From Zobellia galactanivorans (GTDB taxonomy: Bacteria; Bacteroidota; Bacteroidia; Flavobacteriales; Flavobacteriaceae): a stretch of 64,000 nt of DNA. Location: contig NC_015844.1 of the NCBI RefSeq assembly GCF_000973105.1, forward strand, positions 4,770,501 to 4,834,500, in the 5' to 3' direction. The notes under the pieces were generated by a model that did no database searches, was not told the DNA's origin, and saw only the letters and a program-made list of their open reading frames with translations. Below, in pieces: positions 11,356 to 26,366 of this stretch. Numbering within the stretch: the stretch's first letter is position 1; each line of letters starts with the position of its first letter. Position numbers and translations under genes: made by a program.

Positions 11356-14133
11356 CTACAATTTTTCCTTTAGATACTTGGCCGTAAACGAAGTGCTGCT
11401 TTTGATTATTTCCTCGGGCGTGCCTTCCGCCAAAAGTTGCCCTCCATTTTCACCGCCTTCCGGGCCTAGATCAATAATATAGTCCGCACACTTGATGAGC
11501 TCTACATTATGTTCGATCACAATGACCGAATGGCCCTTTTCTATAAGGGCATCAAATGACTTCAAAAGTTTTTTGATATCGTGAAAATGTAGTCCTGTAG
11601 TGGGTTCGTCAAAAATGAACAAGGCCTTGTCCTTGGTCGTGCCCTTGACCAAAAAGGAAGCCAGTTTAATACGCTGTGCCTCACCGCCCGAAAGGGTAGA
11701 AGAAGACTGTCCAAGGGTTACATAGCCCAAGCCAACATCTTGTAAAGGTTTTAGTTTGTTTACGATCTTGTTTTGTTTATGGATATCAAAAAAGGCAATG
11801 GCATCATCAATGGTCATATTAAGAACGTCATCGATATTGGCCTCATGAAACTTTACTTCCAAGACTTCCTTTTTAAAACGCTTACCCCCACAGGTATCGC
11901 ATTGAAGGTGTACATCGGCCATAAACTGCATTTCTACCGTAATTTCGCCTTCCCCCTTACATTTTTCACACCGGCCTCCATCGACATTAAAAGAGAAGTG
12001 TTTGGCCTGATAAGCCCTGATTTTACTCAGTTTCTGTGCCGCAAAGAGGTTTCTGATATCATCGTAGGCCTTTATATAGGTCACGGGATTTGAGCGTGAA
12101 GACCTACCAATGGGGTTCTGGTCTACGAACTCGACATGTTTTATGGTCTTGTATTTTCCTTCTACTTTGGTATACTGTCCGGCCTTTTCGCCGTAACCAC
12201 CAACTTCCTTTAAAATAATAGGGTAGAGGAGTTTTTTGACCAAGGTACTCTTTCCACTACCGGAAACACCGGTTATTACGGTAAGCATGTTTAATGGAAA
12301 AGTAACATCTATATTTTTAAGGTTGTTTTCGCGGGCCCCTTTAATCGTAATATAATCGGGAGAGGTCCGTCTTTTTGTGGGCACACTGATTTCTTTCGTG
12401 CCGTTCAAGTATCCTGCAGTCAGTGAATTCGATTTTAAGATGTCGTCCAAGGTCCCATGGGCCACTACCTCACCGCCATGTGTTCCCGCTTCCGGGCCAA
12501 TATCTATGACTTCGTCGGCAGCCTTCATAATGTCTTCGTCGTGTTCGACTACGATTACGGTATTGCCCAAATCGCGTAAGGACAACAAAACATCGATCAG
12601 GTTTTCGGTGTCTTTAGGATGTAGTCCGATACTGGGTTCATCAAGAATATACATGCTTCCTACAAGGCTACTGCCCAAAGAGGTTGCTAGGTTGATCCGT
12701 TGGCTTTCACCACCCGATAAGGTATTCGACTTTCGGTTCATGGTCAGATAGCTTAATCCTACCTTATCGAGAAAACCGAGCCTGGTATTGATTTCCTTTA
12801 AAAGGCGGGAAGCGATTTTCGAATCGTATTTATCCAAAACCAAATCATCAAAAAACGGAATCAACTTTTTAATGGGAAGTTCGACCAAGTCGGAAATGTT
12901 CTTACCGGCAATTTTTACATAGTCCGTTTCCTTGCGCAGGCGTTTTCCGTGGCAAACGTTGCATTTGGTTTTTCCCCGGTAGCGCGAAAGCATCACCCGG
13001 TTTTGAATTTTATAGCTTTTTTCCTCTAGTTGACCAAAAAACTTATGTAGGCCGATAAAATGTTCGTTTCCGTCCCAGACCAGTTGTTTTTGTTCTTCGG
13101 AAAGTTCGAACCAAGGTTTGTGTATCGGGAAATCGAATTTGTAGGAAGAGTTTACCAGTTGGTCCCTGTACCACCCCATACTTTCGCCTCGCCATGGGAA
13201 AATGGCATTTTCATAAACAGAAAGGGCTGTATTGGGCACCACTAGGTCTTCATCAATACCGATAACATCGCCATAGCCTTCGCATTTCGGACAGGCCCCA
13301 TAAGGGTTGTTAAAACTGAACAGATGTACATTTGGTTCTAAAAACGTCATCCCATCAAGCTCAAACTTATTGCTGAAGGGAATGCGCTCTTTGCTGTTGA
13401 GTTCTTCAATGGCACATTCACCTTTTCCTTCAAAAAAAGCGGTATCGACGGCATTTGCCAAACGATTGTAGAAATCTTCGTCATCTTTGACAATAATCCG
13501 ATCGACGACCAAATCGAAATTCCGTGAAATATCATCAGGTACGTTGTCTATACGAAGTACTTCGCCCTTATATTTGATACGCGCGTAGCCTTGCTTTGAG
13601 AGCAATTGTAGTGATTTGATGGTATCTCGGTTCGCATCTATTTGGATCGGGGCCAATAAAAGTAACTTGGTGCCTTCCTCGTATGTCTTTACCTGTTCGA
13701 CCACATCGGTAACCGTATCTTTTTTGACCTCTCGCCCGGAAATAGGGGAGATGGTACGGCCGATACGGGCGTAGAGCAGTTTGAGGTAATCGTAAATTTC
13801 GGTGGTAGTACCTACGGTAGAACGTGGGTTGGTAGAATTCACCTTTTGTTCAATGGCGATGGCGGGCGCTATACCTTTTATATAATCAACCTTGGGTTTG
13901 TCTAGCTTGCCCAAGAATTGCCTTGCATAAGACGAAAGACTTTCTACATACCTTCTTTGGCCTTCGGCATAAAGCGTATCGAAAGCCAAACTCGATTTTC
14001 CGGAACCCGAAAGACCGGTAATGACCACCAATTTGTTTCGGGGGATGACAACGTCGATATTCTTTAAGTTGTGCAGTTTTGCTCCCTTAATGATTATGTT
14101 GTACTTGGGGTTTACGTCTACTATTTCTGCCAT
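11356..14133 (-). CDS. uvrA: Excinuclease ABC subunit UvrA
   Basis: UvrA scans DNA for bulky lesions as a dimer and loads UvrB in nucleotide excision repair. The 925-residue product has both ABC modules: Walker A GLSGSGKS at residues 40-47 and a second one (GVSGSGKST) in the C-terminal half, and two signatures (LSGGESQR, LSGGEAQR). It also has zinc-binding CxxC pairs: CPKC and CNVC in the first half, and CEKC...CDTC in the second half. I chose the ATG at 14131-14133 (MAEIVDVNPKYNIIIKG), which matches the family N-terminus; an in-frame start 42 bases upstream would add 14 unusual residues. It has the usual length for the family and is transcribed alone. Confidence 0.97.
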   Translation of the reverse strand: MAEIVDVNPKYNIIIKGAKLHNLKNIDVVIPRNKLVVITGLSGSGKSSLAFDTLYAEGQRRYVESLSSYARQFLGKLDKPKVDYIKGIAPAIAIEQKVNSTNPRSTVGTTTEIYDYLKLLYARIGRTISPISGREVKKDTVTDVVEQVKTYEEGTKLLLLAPIQIDANRDTIKSLQLLSKQGYARIKYKGEVLRIDNVPDDISRNFDLVVDRIIVKDDEDFYNRLANAVDTAFFEGKGECAIEELNSKERIPFSNKFELDGMTFLEPNVHLFSFNNPYGACPKCEGYGDVIGIDEDLVVPNTALSVYENAIFPWRGESMGWYRDQLVNSSYKFDFPIHKPWFELSEEQKQLVWDGNEHFIGLHKFFGQLEEKSYKIQNRVMLSRYRGKTKCNVCHGKRLRKETDYVKIAGKNISDLVELPIKKLIPFFDDLVLDKYDSKIASRLLKEINTRLGFLDKVGLSYLTMNRKSNTLSGGESQRINLATSLGSSLVGSMYILDEPSIGLHPKDTENLIDVLLSLRDLGNTVIVVEHDEDIMKAADEVIDIGPEAGTHGGEVVAHGTLDDILKSNSLTAGYLNGTKEISVPTKRRTSPDYITIKGARENNLKNIDVTFPLNMLTVITGVSGSGKSTLVKKLLYPIILKEVGGYGEKAGQYTKVEGKYKTIKHVEFVDQNPIGRSSRSNPVTYIKAYDDIRNLFAAQKLSKIRAYQAKHFSFNVDGGRCEKCKGEGEITVEMQFMADVHLQCDTCGGKRFKKEVLEVKFHEANIDDVLNMTIDDAIAFFDIHKQNKIVNKLKPLQDVGLGYVTLGQSSSTLSGGEAQRIKLASFLVKGTTKDKALFIFDEPTTGLHFHDIKKLLKSFDALIEKGHSVIVIEHNVELIKCADYIIDLGPEGGENGGQLLAEGTPEEIIKSSTSFTAKYLKEKL

Positions 14134-14251
14134 GTGCTTATCTAAGCTTACAAAGATACGATATGATGATTTCAATAGCTAAAATTGTACAGTTCACATT
14201 AAAAAATGTGTCGATAACGTCAGAAATTTTCTAAAGTCATTTAATTTTTTC

Positions 14252-14259
14252 TATATTTG
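14252..14259 (+). promoter_or_regulatory. -7 element of the first ECF sigma gene
   Basis: TATATTTG fits TAnnTTTG exactly. It leaves a leader of about 110 bases before the start codon at 14379, nearly the same length as predicted for the second copy. Confidence 0.55.
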
Positions 14260-14330
14260 ACCCCAACAAAATGTTAAGACGCCTATAGCGAAAAATTACT
14301 TTTAGAAAGATTAAAACATTATCTACCAGA

Positions 14331-14347
14331 CCTTTTCTATGAAAAGG
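14331..14347 (+). promoter_or_regulatory. Leader hairpin of the first sigma gene
   Basis: CCTTTTC - TAT - GAAAAGG, a perfect 7-bp stem in the 5' leader ending exactly 31 bases before the ATG. A counterpart at 15537-15550 has the same 31-base spacing to the second sigma gene. Confidence 0.55.
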
Positions 14348-14378
14348 ACGTCAGGTTTTAACTATTAAAGTAATTGTT

Positions 14379-14960
14379 ATGGATATATTGACAAAAGATT
14401 CCCTTCTTATTAAAAATTACATCTCGGGTGATGAAAAAGCTTTGGAGATTCTGATTGAAAAGCACAACCAGCGGCTCAGCAGTTTTATTTACTCCAAGGT
14501 AAACAACCGTGATATTACCGAAGACATTTTTCAAGACACCTTTATTAAGGTCATCAAAACACTTCGACGGGGCACCTATAATGAAGAAGGTAAATTTTTG
14601 CCATGGGTGATGCGTATCGCCCATAACCTTATTATAGACCACTTTAGAAAAAATAGCCGAATGCCTATGTTCGAGGGGTCCGATACTTTTGATATTTTCG
14701 CCCACATAGGGGACGAAAAGCTAAATATAGAACGACAGTTAATAAAAGACCAGATCGATTGTGACCTTGAAATTTTGGTAGATGAACTACCTGAAGACCA
14801 AAAGGAGGTTTTGGTCATGCGTATCTATAGGGATATGAGTTTTAAGGAAATCTCGGAAAATACCGGGGTAAGTATAAATACCGCACTGGGCCGTATGCGC
14901 TATGCCCTTATTAATTTGCGGAAGATTATTGAACAGAACAACATTGCTTTGACGAATTAA
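14379..14960 (+). CDS. ECF-type RNA polymerase sigma factor, copy 1
   Basis: A 193-residue sigma-70 family protein with region 2 (FIYSKV...TEDIFQDTFIKVIKTL, about residues 35-62) and region 4 with its helix-turn-helix (MSFKEISENTGVSINTALGRMRYAL, about 152-176, here split by description only). It directs core RNA polymerase to a special promoter set. It aligns without gaps to the second copy at 15582-16163, with 154 of 193 residues identical by hand count. No membrane or zinc-finger anti-sigma gene lies next to it; instead a 47-codon gene follows 73 bases downstream. The regulon is unknown. The start is supported by equal length in both copies. Confidence 0.92.
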   Translation: MDILTKDSLLIKNYISGDEKALEILIEKHNQRLSSFIYSKVNNRDITEDIFQDTFIKVIKTLRRGTYNEEGKFLPWVMRIAHNLIIDHFRKNSRMPMFEGSDTFDIFAHIGDEKLNIERQLIKDQIDCDLEILVDELPEDQKEVLVMRIYRDMSFKEISENTGVSINTALGRMRYALINLRKIIEQNNIALTN

Positions 14961-14997
14961 TTAACCATAGGTCGAAGCAATTCATTATATTTATATC

Positions 14998-15008
14998 AGT
15001 TGCGTTAT
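14998..15008 (+). promoter_or_regulatory. Conserved 11-mer before the first 47-codon gene
   Basis: AGTTGCGTTAT lies 25 bases before the ATG at 15034. The identical 11-mer lies 24 bases before the second mini-gene. It may be a promoter element or an RNA site; the bases around it are much less conserved. Confidence 0.45.
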
Positions 15009-15033
15009 TATGCGGTAACAATACTGAATATAT

Positions 15034-15177
15034 ATGGGAAAAATTTACGCTACAGAATCGGACAAATGTAGATTGGTAAAAGCGAAGCCTGAAACCGTTG
15101 AGTTTCTATTGGCTTATTCCAAATCTCTAAGTATTACAGAAGCCAAAGGTTTACAGTTTGAGTCAAATATGAACTGA
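15034..15177 (+). CDS. 47-residue conserved small protein, copy 1
   Basis: A short gene of 48 codons including the stop, downstream of the first sigma gene. The product starts MGKIYATE, contains VKAKPETVEFLLAYSK in the middle and ends LQFESNMN. It aligns without gaps over its full 47 residues to the second copy at 16235-16378 (19 identical residues plus many conservative ones such as V/I, Y/F, L/F). Its position immediately after a sigma gene in both copies, and a terminator 22 bases after its stop, argue that it is a real gene. It has no signal peptide or membrane helix. A role as a sigma modulator is inference. Confidence 0.7.
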   Translation: MGKIYATESDKCRLVKAKPETVEFLLAYSKSLSITEAKGLQFESNMN

Positions 15178-15198
15178 CGAATAACCTTATATTATATA

Positions 15199-15236
15199 AA
15201 AGGCCCTTGCACGAATTGTGCAAGGGCCTTTTTTGT
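15199..15236 (+). terminator. Intrinsic terminator of sigma cassette 1
   Basis: A 14-bp perfect stem (AAAGGCCCTTGCAC / GTGCAAGGGCCTTT) with a GAATT loop followed by a T-run. Confidence 0.93.
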
Positions 15237-15456
15237 AGGAAATAAGTACCCATAAAGCCTGTGTTTATAATAAGTATTGTATGATATGTATATTCTCCTT
15301 TTAAAACAATACCAGGCCATACATCTTCAGGGTATTGATTTTGTGTGGCTAACGCACTTCGAACCATTTTATTTTGTTGAAAAAGGGAAAAGTAGGTTTT
15401 CACATCAAAAACAAGCGGTTTTACAACAATGTTTTTTTCTAGACCCCTCTATTATC

Positions 15457-15464
15457 TAGTTTTA
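15457..15464 (+). promoter_or_regulatory. Possible -7 element of the second ECF sigma gene
   Basis: TAGTTTTA differs from TAnnTTTG at the last base. Its distance to the start codon (117 bases) is nearly the same as in copy 1 (119 bases), which is the main support. Confidence 0.35.
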
Positions 15465-15536
15465 TATCATAATTAATAACAAGGCCATCCACCAAAGGAT
15501 AAAATTACATTCTTAAAATAACTAAATAACGGTAGT

Positions 15537-15550
15537 CTTTCTTAGGAAAG
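15537..15550 (+). promoter_or_regulatory. Leader hairpin of the second sigma gene
   Basis: CTTTC - TTAG - GAAAG, a 5-bp stem ending exactly 31 bases before the ATG, like the 7-bp hairpin of copy 1. Stem length and loop differ, so the shape is kept more than the sequence. Confidence 0.5.
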
Positions 15551-15581
15551 TCTCAAATCTTAAACTAAAAAACCCTACACA

Positions 15582-16163
15582 ATGAACCAACAAATCGAAG
15601 ATTCAATACTAGTAAGAGATTATATCAGCGGAGACGAAAAAGCTCTTGAGATTTTGATCAACCGTCACAACCAAAGAATATCTAGTTTTATTTACTCTAA
15701 GGTTTTGGATCGCGATGTGACCGAAGATATTTTCCAGGACACATTTATTAAAGTGATCAAAACTTTAAAAAGAGGTTCATATAGTGAAGAGGGAAAGTTT
15801 TTACCTTGGGTAATGCGTATCGCCCATAACTTGATCATCGATCATTTTAGAAAGAACAAAAGGATGCCGATGTTCGAAGGAAATGATGATTTCAATATCT
15901 TTTCCGTAATCGGAGATGATAAGTTAAATGCGGAAAAGCAGCTTATTAAAGACCAAATTACTTCTGACCTTAAACATTTGATCGAAGAATTACCAGATGA
16001 TCAAAAAGAAGTTTTGGTAATGCGTATCTACAAAGACATGAGCTTTAAGGAAATCTCTGAAAACACCGGAGTAAGCATTAACACGGCCTTGGGAAGAATG
16101 CGTTATGCCCTTATTAACCTTAGAAAAATCATTGACAAACATAATATTGTTTTAACGAATTAA
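15582..16163 (+). CDS. ECF-type RNA polymerase sigma factor, copy 2
   Basis: A 193-residue paralogue of the sigma factor at 14379-14960. It has the same region 2 and region 4 blocks; the region 4 helix-turn-helix and the core-binding segment around FQDTFIKVIKTL are almost invariant. Differences cluster in the first 13 residues and in the linker between regions 2 and 4 (about residues 100-135). Because the DNA-reading helices are nearly unchanged, both copies probably recognise very similar promoters and differ in control. It is followed 71 bases downstream by its own 47-codon gene. No anti-sigma gene is adjacent. Confidence 0.92.
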   Translation: MNQQIEDSILVRDYISGDEKALEILINRHNQRISSFIYSKVLDRDVTEDIFQDTFIKVIKTLKRGSYSEEGKFLPWVMRIAHNLIIDHFRKNKRMPMFEGNDDFNIFSVIGDDKLNAEKQLIKDQITSDLKHLIEELPDDQKEVLVMRIYKDMSFKEISENTGVSINTALGRMRYALINLRKIIDKHNIVLTN

Positions 16164-16199
16164 TAAGTAGCTGAGAATTCTCAACAATATTTCCAATCT

Positions 16200-16210
16200 A
16201 GTTGCGTTAT
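16200..16210 (+). promoter_or_regulatory. Conserved 11-mer before the second 47-codon gene
   Basis: AGTTGCGTTAT, identical to 14998-15008 and at nearly the same distance (24 bases) from the start of the mini-gene. Confidence 0.45.
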
Positions 16211-16234
16211 CCATTGTATAACTATGCTACTATT

Positions 16235-16378
16235 ATGGAAAAAATTTACTCTGAAAACCTTGAAAGAGGCAATGCTGTAAAAGCTACGAAGGAAACAATC
16301 AACTTTTTACTAAGTTTTTCTAAACAATTTCATATTGTTGAATACAATAATTTTCGTTTTGAAAACAGCTTAAACTAA
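16235..16378 (+). CDS. 47-residue conserved small protein, copy 2
   Basis: The second member of the small-protein pair, also exactly 47 residues. It starts MEKIYSEN, has VKATKETINFLLSFSK in the centre and ends FRFENSLN. Shared residues with copy 1 include KIY near the start, VKA, ET, FLL, SK, and the FE plus terminal N. The conserved core looks like one amphipathic helix (about residues 17-31) followed by a strand. The stop lies just before the hairpin terminator at 16385-16403. No known family was recognised. Confidence 0.7.
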   Translation: MEKIYSENLERGNAVKATKETINFLLSFSKQFHIVEYNNFRFENSLN

Positions 16379-16384
16379 AGATAC

Positions 16385-16408
16385 AGACCCGTTTATCGGG
16401 TCTTTTTT
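16385..16408 (+). terminator. Terminator of sigma cassette 2, overlapping the nth 3' end
   Basis: AGACCCG - TTTAT - CGGGTCT stem followed by TTTTT. The last codons of the convergent nth gene are read from the same bases. Confidence 0.85.
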
Positions 16409-17055
16409 GTTTTGTAGTAAGCATCGATTACGGTCTTTCTACCGATGGTCTTTGTTATAATATCTTTTTCTAGATCCCATCCCCGGGCCGGAGAGTATTC
16501 CCTTCCGTACCAAATTATCTGAAGATGCAAGTCGTTCCAAAGTTCTTTTGGAAACAGGCGCTTGGCATCTTTTTCGGTTTGAACCACATTTTTACCATTC
16601 GAAAACCCCCAACGGTACATAAGCCTATGAATATGGGTGTCTACGGGAAAAGCAGGTATACCGAAAGCCTGTGAGACCACCACACTGGCCGTTTTATGTC
16701 CCACGGCGGGCAACTCTTCCAAAAGCGCTATGTCTTTCGGTACCTCGCCCTCGTATTTATCGATAAGTATTTTTGACAAGCCGTAGATTCCCTTTGATTT
16801 CATAGGGGAGAGGCCCACAGGCTTTATGATTTCACGAATTTCCTCTACCGACATCTTAACCATATCATACGGATTATCGGCCCTTTCAAATAATAGGGGG
16901 GTAATCTTGTTCACCCGAACATCGGTACTTTGTGCCGATAACAATACGGCGATCAACAAAGTATAAGGGTCTTTGTGGTCTAAGGGCACCGGTATAGAGG
17001 GATAAATATCACGTAAAGTCGTAATGGTGAAATCAATCTTTTCCGCTTTTGTCAT
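16393..17055 (-). CDS. nth: Endonuclease III, version without the iron-sulfur cluster
   Basis: A 220-residue base-excision DNA glycosylase/AP lyase. The helix-hairpin-helix motif LPAVGHKTA carries the catalytic Lys121, and VDTHIHR supplies Asp139, matching Lys120 and Asp138 of the E. coli enzyme; LLSAQSTD is also present. The usual C-terminal four-cysteine loop that holds a 4Fe-4S cluster is replaced by YGREYSPARGWDLEKD, and the whole protein contains no cysteine. Catalytic residues are intact, so it should be active. The 3' end overlaps the opposing terminator. It is divergent from bcp, with a 42-base gap. Confidence 0.93.
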   Translation of the reverse strand: MTKAEKIDFTITTLRDIYPSIPVPLDHKDPYTLLIAVLLSAQSTDVRVNKITPLLFERADNPYDMVKMSVEEIREIIKPVGLSPMKSKGIYGLSKILIDKYEGEVPKDIALLEELPAVGHKTASVVVSQAFGIPAFPVDTHIHRLMYRWGFSNGKNVVQTEKDAKRLFPKELWNDLHLQIIWYGREYSPARGWDLEKDIITKTIGRKTVIDAYYKTKKTR

Positions 17056-26281: not shown

Positions 26282-26366
26282 GGAGAAATGGCAGAGTGGT
26301 CGAATGCGGCAGTCTTGAAAACTGTTGAGGGTCACACCTCCGGGGGTTCGAATCCCTCTTTCTCCG
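26282..26366 (+). tRNA. tRNA-Ser(TGA)
   Basis: An 85-base tRNA with acceptor stem GGAGAAA/TTTCTCC (26282-26288 and 26359-26365), discriminator G at 26366, D-arm GGCAGAGTGGTCGAA, anticodon loop CTTGAAA with anticodon TGA at 26316-26318, a long variable arm and T-loop GGTTCGAATCC. The long variable arm and the anticodon assign it to serine (UCA/UCN codons). The 3' CCA is not encoded. No integrase or repeated 3' end was seen, so it is not marked as an attachment site. Confidence 0.97.

Follow-up and report, generated by a model that had tools for sequence, protein, structure and literature searches.

The 64,000-nt window that we analysed on contig NC_015844.1 of Zobellia galactanivorans (positions 4,770,501 to 4,834,500 of the forward strand) carries two head-to-tail modules on its + strand (window positions 14252-16408), each made of a gene for an extracytoplasmic function (ECF) sigma factor of 193 aa and a gene for a 47-aa protein. 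Our analysis, which is one of sequences and predicted structures, makes it fairly likely that the 47-aa protein is a soluble anti-sigma factor reduced to the sigma2-binding helix 4, probably acting in a feedback loop with its sigma factor. Each module would thus consist of an ECF sigma factor and a very small soluble protein descended from a class I anti-sigma factor. In this descent helices 1-3, the sigma4-binding bundle, would have been lost, leaving a short opening motif (M.K.Y/T), helix 4 for sigma2 binding (P..ET..FLL.YSK.L) and a brief tail whose last residue is Asn. Helix 4 would lie on sigma regions 2.1-2.2, presumably in competition with binding of the RNA polymerase core. The first sigma copy is probably made from a sigmaA-type promoter, and the sigma factor would transcribe its own partner from an intergenic ACAATA-N15-CGTTAT element, giving negative feedback. 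Coding, linkage, likeness to longer homologues, conservation of the element and coevolution were computed; from them we infer binding, inhibition, feedback and recognition of the element by the sigma factor.

Judged by its pattern of substitution, the small open reading frame (ORF) is a protein-coding gene, with translation predicted. Across nine species of the genus the ratio of nonsynonymous to synonymous substitution (dN/dS) was 0.128 for the first small gene and 0.086 for the second, both far from 1, and 0.027 and 0.011 for the respective sigma genes (infinite distances were dropped; out of 36 pairs this removed 2 and 0 in the small genes and 6 and 1 in the sigmas). Variable sites of the small genes are concentrated at codon position 3, and length changes among the small ORFs of relatives are in frame. 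A chance ORF was ruled out by conservation in other genomes together with shuffling: among 2000 pairs of dinucleotide shuffles of both stretches, an ATG-started ORF of at least 40 aa arose in both members five times and one of 47 aa in both never. Pfam and NCBIfam gave no match to either small protein of the window at E up to 1.

The small gene is a constant neighbour of the sigma gene well beyond this genome. In 30 loci of close relatives, a family ORF of 46-50 aa follows 42 of 42 sigma genes (41 found by rule, with L030, outside the pattern, read by eye, and with the shorter of two starts taken for L033). The same holds for every one of the 90 sigma genes at 80 named genome loci, most of them from Flavobacteriaceae, where all 90 proteins end in Asn and none of 129 reverse-strand control ORFs matches the family. 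Among 296 genomes of the order, a profile of the small protein matched 158, all of which carry the sigma factor, and found the small gene in none of the 67 sigma-less genomes; the Fisher value for this co-occurrence is too optimistic owing to kinship. Among the 71 sigma-only genomes are families in which this first, too narrow profile missed the partner. At 102 further sigma loci, nearly all from other families, we scored 58 short partners, 15 partners called long and 29 cases with no partner recognised. These counts are partly circular, since 42 of the 73 partner proteins at the further loci, like 36 of the 228 small proteins used below, are rows of the profiles employed; for L146 and L171 the long label had rested on length alone, and in the sigma tree both were relabelled short by eye, as were the f6 loci L092-L094. 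The preliminary description had proposed a functional tie between the small protein and the sigma factor, and this now stands on the coding signature, the constant neighbourhood, the absence of the small gene without the sigma among the 296 genomes, and coevolution with sigma region 2. Its argument from co-duplication proved the weaker one, the pairing being far wider than the duplication and most of the genomes searched being single-copy.

In three genomes of one family (L179, L180 and L091) the small gene is encoded apart from the sigma gene, with one match of each per genome. All three unlinked genes have a CGTTA box shortly upstream of the chosen start, and the full motif described below scores low there (9.7, 2.7 and -3.3). 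These cases weakly favour action in trans.

Both sigma copies of the window are of the ECF type, with PF04542, PF04545 or PF08281, and TIGR02937 above cut-off and no match to region 3. The sigma factor is present in 52 of 60 near relatives and 229 of 296 genomes of the order (threshold 1e-30) and in 178 of 198 Bacteroidia genomes (threshold 1e-35). Most genomes searched hold a single copy; two copies were found in nine genomes of the genus itself and three others among the 60 near relatives, and at 10 of the 80 named loci. The module was duplicated in a single clade of Flavobacteriaceae. A quick tree groups 17 of 21 first sigma copies together and places five of six single copies of the duplicated clade with second copies; the duplication is therefore old, with copy 1 lost in places. 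A search for alignment columns separating first from second sigma copies returned none at the chosen threshold. One further locus (L102, in genome G246) has a second, diverged sigma copy far from the first, with no recognisable small partner.

The two sigma factors of the window are identical at 154 of 193 positions and their partners at 19 of 47 without gaps; the hand counts of the preliminary description were exact on recount, and its tandem duplication is real, rightly placed with all four genes on the + strand, and more general than could be seen from the window's letters. The differences between the sigmas touch 10 of 35 linker positions and 9 of 24 N-terminal positions but none of the 31 positions of region 4.2 (region limits that we set ourselves). 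This sparing of region 4.2 probably means that both recognise the same -35 sequence. Because region 4.2 is identical while the partners have diverged, the two copies probably differ in control.

The origin of the small protein is suggested by longer proteins that occupy the same position in some families, most of 72-90 aa and one of 173 aa (L139). Their alignment runs from M.KTFT through a first helix of the type LIRf.YnE and two further helices to P..sS...IL..S. An AlphaFold2 (AF2) model of an 88-aa member has helices at residues 7-14, 20-32, 34-51 and 59-78 (mean predicted local distance difference test score, pLDDT, 81.5), with the last nine residues unordered. A Foldseek search with this model gave 44 hits at E up to 10, of which the first 17 are chains of RslA, ChrR, RskA, MucA and RsiW, at single E-values of 0.2-3, none reaching 0.001, and probabilities from 0.97 down to 0.38. 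We take RslA and MucA to be class I anti-sigma factors. The 72-90-aa homologues agree with that class (ASDI) in having a predicted four-helix fold next to an ECF sigma gene, one member having been modelled. By sequence the likeness is fainter: none of the four long forms scanned has an anti-sigma Pfam match, two of them have weak NCBIfam anti-sigma matches (best 0.0033), and a sequence search with the long forms did not find a solved anti-sigma structure.

Aligned with hhalign, the class-wide short family matches the long family with a probability of 97.6% and E 4e-12, in such a way that the start and the fourth helix align and helices 1-3 are missing; with Flavobacteriaceae short forms alone the probability is 77% and E 1.9e-5, the match being confined to helix 4. 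These E-values are those of single comparisons, not database E-values. An AF2 model of the copy-2 47-mer, of moderate confidence (mean pLDDT 78.7), has one helix at residues 19-31 and strands at 32-37 and 40-45, so that the three-helix sigma4-binding bundle typical of class I is missing from the 47-aa protein. In the sigma tree, long forms occupy three separate parts with short ones around them, which takes six changes between long and short, at least three of them forced by starred branches, with the bootstrap not settled. Anti-sigma factors of other phyla have a fold like that of the long form, and we therefore favour repeated loss of the sigma4-binding bundle over repeated gain. Hydropathy detected no membrane segment in any of the 228 small proteins (highest 19-residue value 1.41; the 173-aa L139 lies outside this set), and the zinc-binding motif HxxxCxxC occurs in none of the 228 nor in 13 long forms. 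The preliminary description had suggested a new kind of sigma modulator; instead of something unrelated to anti-sigma factors, the protein has the look of a class I anti-sigma factor pared down to helix 4.

Coevolution points to the same helix. Mean-field direct coupling analysis of 228 distinct sigma/small pairs (effective number 138) placed sigma I26 with small L25 (z 7.6) and sigma K60 with small F28 (z 6.6) at the top, with the third pair, at 5.1, not outstanding; five permutations of the pairing gave maxima of 4.5-5.6. L25 and F28 are one turn apart on the helix of the short protein. In 12 subsamples of 70%, I26-L25 ranked 1-18 and K60-F28 ranked 1-13 of 9071, and both stayed in the top four under two other settings. 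Region 4 makes up 27% of the sigma factor and contributes none of the 20 best pairs. Assuming an offset of three residues in the mapping to RpoE numbering, sigma I26 aligns with Escherichia coli RpoE residue 26 and K60 with residue 59. Table 2 of PMC7406223 lists contacts of RpoE residue 26 with residues 55, 56 and 59 of anti-sigma helix 4 in four crystal structures, and of residue 58 with residue 63. The coupling pattern is that expected if helix 4 still docks on sigma2, and it supports the predicted contact.

Coupling shows contact, not its sign, and the small protein might bind sigma2 but help: as a chaperone, stabiliser or co-factor it could escort the sigma factor or alter its promoter use. 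Such a role is unlikely in our estimate. With the sigma4 grip of ordinary anti-sigma factors lost, full inhibition is less certain, and long forms such as L173, L175 and L162 lack the Asn-ending tail that 224 of 228 small proteins have. Against a helper stand the likeness to anti-sigma factors and the gene order, for inhibitors are usually encoded downstream of their sigma gene. That the protein is instead a decayed anti-sigma factor in another role, its sigma binding gone, is very improbable: most of the ancestral domain is indeed missing and the small gene stands apart in the three genomes mentioned, but the sigma factor is retained in all 158 small-positive genomes and sigma2 coupling persists.

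The third alternative, that the transcript is chiefly a regulatory or dual-function RNA with the peptide secondary, draws on the synonymous sites. In 18 single-copy relatives (L021-L038), the small ORF varies less in its synonymous codons than the sigma gene does, with a mean z of 2.84 over 29 conserved columns versus 0.71 over 138, and this constraint falls chiefly on codons 2-6 and on those from about 34 to 48. Codon 5 is invariably TAC in the 42 small ORFs. Within the genus, dS of the small gene is about half that of the sigma gene. A putative regulatory RNA of Flavobacterium psychrophilum, Rfp11, is listed in PMC9723704 (Table 2C) with an ECF-type CGT promoter and as conserved in other species, and may be the transcript of this small gene. 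An RNA as the chief product is nevertheless quite unlikely, given the strong coding signature and in-frame length changes, and the synonymous excess over all 42 copies is not significant (P 0.09). A search for a conserved RNA fold in the intergenic region or the small ORF gave nothing convincing besides the terminator; z values of -2.4 for the whole ORF and -4.1 for the intergenic region plus ORF in the single-copy set stem from a short stem of -1.07 kcal/mol and were given no weight. A known RNA family was rejected, with only sub-threshold Rfam matches near the modules and none at gathering score there or in 11 relative loci searched.

A conserved element before the small gene provides a possible route for feedback. 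A CGTT-seeded motif search upstream of the 228 small ORFs returned ACAATAA-N14-CGTTAT, whose median distance to the ATG is 25 nt; this ECF-type promoter-like element can be written ACAATA-N15-CGTTAT. CGTT occurs within 100 nt upstream of 225 of the 228, and CAATA-N14-16-CGTT precedes 153 (29 of the 36 that belong to other orders); two controls gave 0 and 2 such cases. When the boxes were sought 8-22 nt apart, the first spacer found was 15 in 117 of 164. In the window, the two best matches to the core motif are the small-gene elements, with six sites over threshold versus one in the control, and the leaders of the sigma genes score far lower (-1.2 and -1.9). In F. psychrophilum, PMC9723704 ties a CGT -10 box (SM6) to ECF factors; with this box and its geometry, the element therefore fits an ECF promoter, and we infer that it is read by the sigma factor of the module. 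A sigmaA promoter of the TAnnTTTG type before the small gene was considered and rejected, loose TA-N2/3-TTT boxes occurring in only part of 42 intergenic stretches.

Beyond the modules themselves, the promoter model, in genome searches that scored at most 150 first-look candidates, did not delimit a regulon. The exact element pattern matched six times, and eight times backward. A profile of 40 sites gave 14 matches in the Z. galactanivorans genome, among which the window elements rank 1 and 3, partly by construction, since one is a row of the profile and the other is a single base away from one; the rank-2 match lies inside a 173-aa reading frame. A regulon of envelope genes had seemed possible, with genes for a lipoprotein, a TPR protein and a CarboxypepD_reg-like protein 26-39 nt downstream of matches and a match before gldK, and we dropped it because the backward control did as well. 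The list of SM6 promoters in PMC9723704 holds GldN, PorU, an ECF/anti-sigma pair and Rfp11; no convincing site was found at the gldN promoter here. When five other genomes were searched, the element of the small gene itself was recovered in three of them, at E up to 1.5. As side observations, a lipoprotein gene pair carries a CGTT-type match in two species of the genus (L280 and L301, 71 of 122 residues identical), which we note as a lead only, and another match precedes gldK (L287); as a group these are no better than the backward control.

Several points weigh against a helix-4 anti-sigma factor under the control of its own sigma. There is no regulon evidence for the CGTTAT element: an ORF of at least 100 aa follows three of 12 non-window forward matches versus two of seven in the backward control. 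No partner was recognised at 29 of the 102 further loci, and the synonymous-site constraint of the small gene has no account in the model. The couplings come from related pairs and were judged by only five permutations, which remove kinship along with pairing; with other settings, pairs such as sigma 96 with small 31 equal the top two, and five of the 40 best pairs lie in sigma4, where about 11 would be expected by length. In the crystal structures treated in PMC7406223, anti-sigma factors touch sigma2 as well as sigma4. A single helix may bind weakly.

Among known systems, class I (ASDI) factors such as ChrR, RskA, RsiW and RseA (PMC7406223), RslA and MucA are likewise encoded directly after an ECF sigma gene. 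Their four-helix plan is matched by the long homologues, and the short form appears to keep helix 4, which couples to sigma2 in the coevolution analysis; it differs in lacking helices 1-3, hence the sigma4 contact, as well as a membrane segment and sensor part, and in having the Asn-ending tail and an ECF-type promoter-like element of its own. Compared by description, the class II factor CnrY is also a minimal sigma-binding part of few helices with its last helix on sigma2 (PMC7406223), but it uses two helices, on sigma4 and sigma2, and one is predicted here. CfrX of Pseudomonas SigX, again compared by description, is another small soluble protein proposed as an ECF anti-sigma factor (PMC8999054), predicted at 84 aa in P. 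aeruginosa (PMC7641640) versus 47 aa here. EcfO-Reo of Bacteroides and Phocaeicola is likewise an ECF sigma and anti-sigma gene pair of Bacteroidota; we rejected it as the nearest relative, Reo being described as spanning the envelope from cytoplasm to surface (PMC13114119), unlike the 47-aa protein with no membrane segment. PorX-SigP of Porphyromonas and the SM6 promoters of F. psychrophilum are further Bacteroidota ECF systems, likened by description only, with no SigP sequence compared; SM6 is reported to have a CGT -10 box and to cover type IX secretion genes (PMC9723704), and the module element has CGTTAT.

The component parts are of known kinds. To our knowledge, a class-wide anti-sigma factor apparently cut to helix 4 with its own ECF-type promoter-like element is new; in the open-licence literature, judged by title and the start of the abstract and leaving subscription journals and preprints outside, we found nothing describing this small protein. 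PMC7406223 reports a class I anti-sigma neighbour for only 6% of Bacteroidetes ECF sigma factors and raises the question of whether synteny has been lost or control is mostly of another kind. Here, the partner of an ECF subfamily that occurs in 178 of 198 Bacteroidia genomes is often so short that the two in the window match no Pfam or NCBIfam family; if our interpretation is true, one helix would suffice for anti-sigma control, and the system would offer a natural test of RNA polymerase block by sigma2 binding alone. The two window modules would also be a natural test of partner specificity, because their sigmas share an identical region 4.2 while the partners differ. We would extend this only tentatively, as a rather doubtful generalisation, to single-helix anti-sigma peptides being the usual partner of a very widespread Bacteroidia ECF sigma factor, the bundle having been lost more than once, with a promoter for the own sigma and an mRNA under RNA-level constraint, whose transcript may act as both feedback peptide and regulatory RNA. 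Such a generalisation would go some way to account for the figure of 6%.

Table 1. Features of the two modules, in window positions
Feature	Position	Strand	Support
SigmaA-type box TATATTTG before sigma copy 1	14252..14259	+	In 12/12 aligned copy-1 leaders
ECF sigma factor copy 1, 193 aa	14379..14960	+	PF04542 5e-15, PF04545 4e-9, TIGR02937 1e-25
ECF-type promoter-like element, small gene 1	14982..15008	+	Weak -35 at about 14982-14988; -10 CGTTAT 15003-15008; core-motif score 15.9
Putative 47-aa helix-4-only anti-sigma-like protein, copy 1	15034..15177	+	dN/dS 0.128 (9 species), family alignment
Intrinsic terminator 1	15198..15236	+	Fold -26.7 kcal/mol, z -7.2 (15195-15240), T run after; absent from pattern scan
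ECF sigma factor copy 2, 193 aa	15582..16163	+	PF04542 7e-14, PF08281 1e-10
ECF-type promoter-like element, small gene 2	16184..16210	+	-35 ACAATAT 16184-16190; -10 CGTTAT 16205-16210; core-motif score 20.7
Putative 47-aa helix-4-only anti-sigma-like protein, copy 2	16235..16378	+	dN/dS 0.086; AF2 model
Intrinsic terminator 2, both-strand score, overlaps nth end	16385..16410	+	Pattern scan; z -3.8 (16378-16415)

The modules (Table 1) lie between two genes on the - strand, uvrA (11356-14175) and nth (16393-17055), which we named from their own sequence. Each module had been described as having a leader hairpin and a terminator. The terminators are borne out against shuffles (z -7.2 and -3.8), the pattern scan reporting only the second, but the leader hairpins are not (z -1.2 and -0.2). 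The two sigma leaders are unlike each other. The box before copy 1 corresponds to the sigmaA-type consensus given as TAnnTTTG in PMC9723704, and no such box was seen in the copy-2 leader of the 12 aligned genomes. In that second leader (window positions 15415-15431 and the rest of it), blocks near GCGGTTTTACAACAATG and CTAGTTTTA..TCA are common to the 12. Elsewhere in the window, a tRNA gene at positions 26282-26366 is the sole Rfam match at gathering score.

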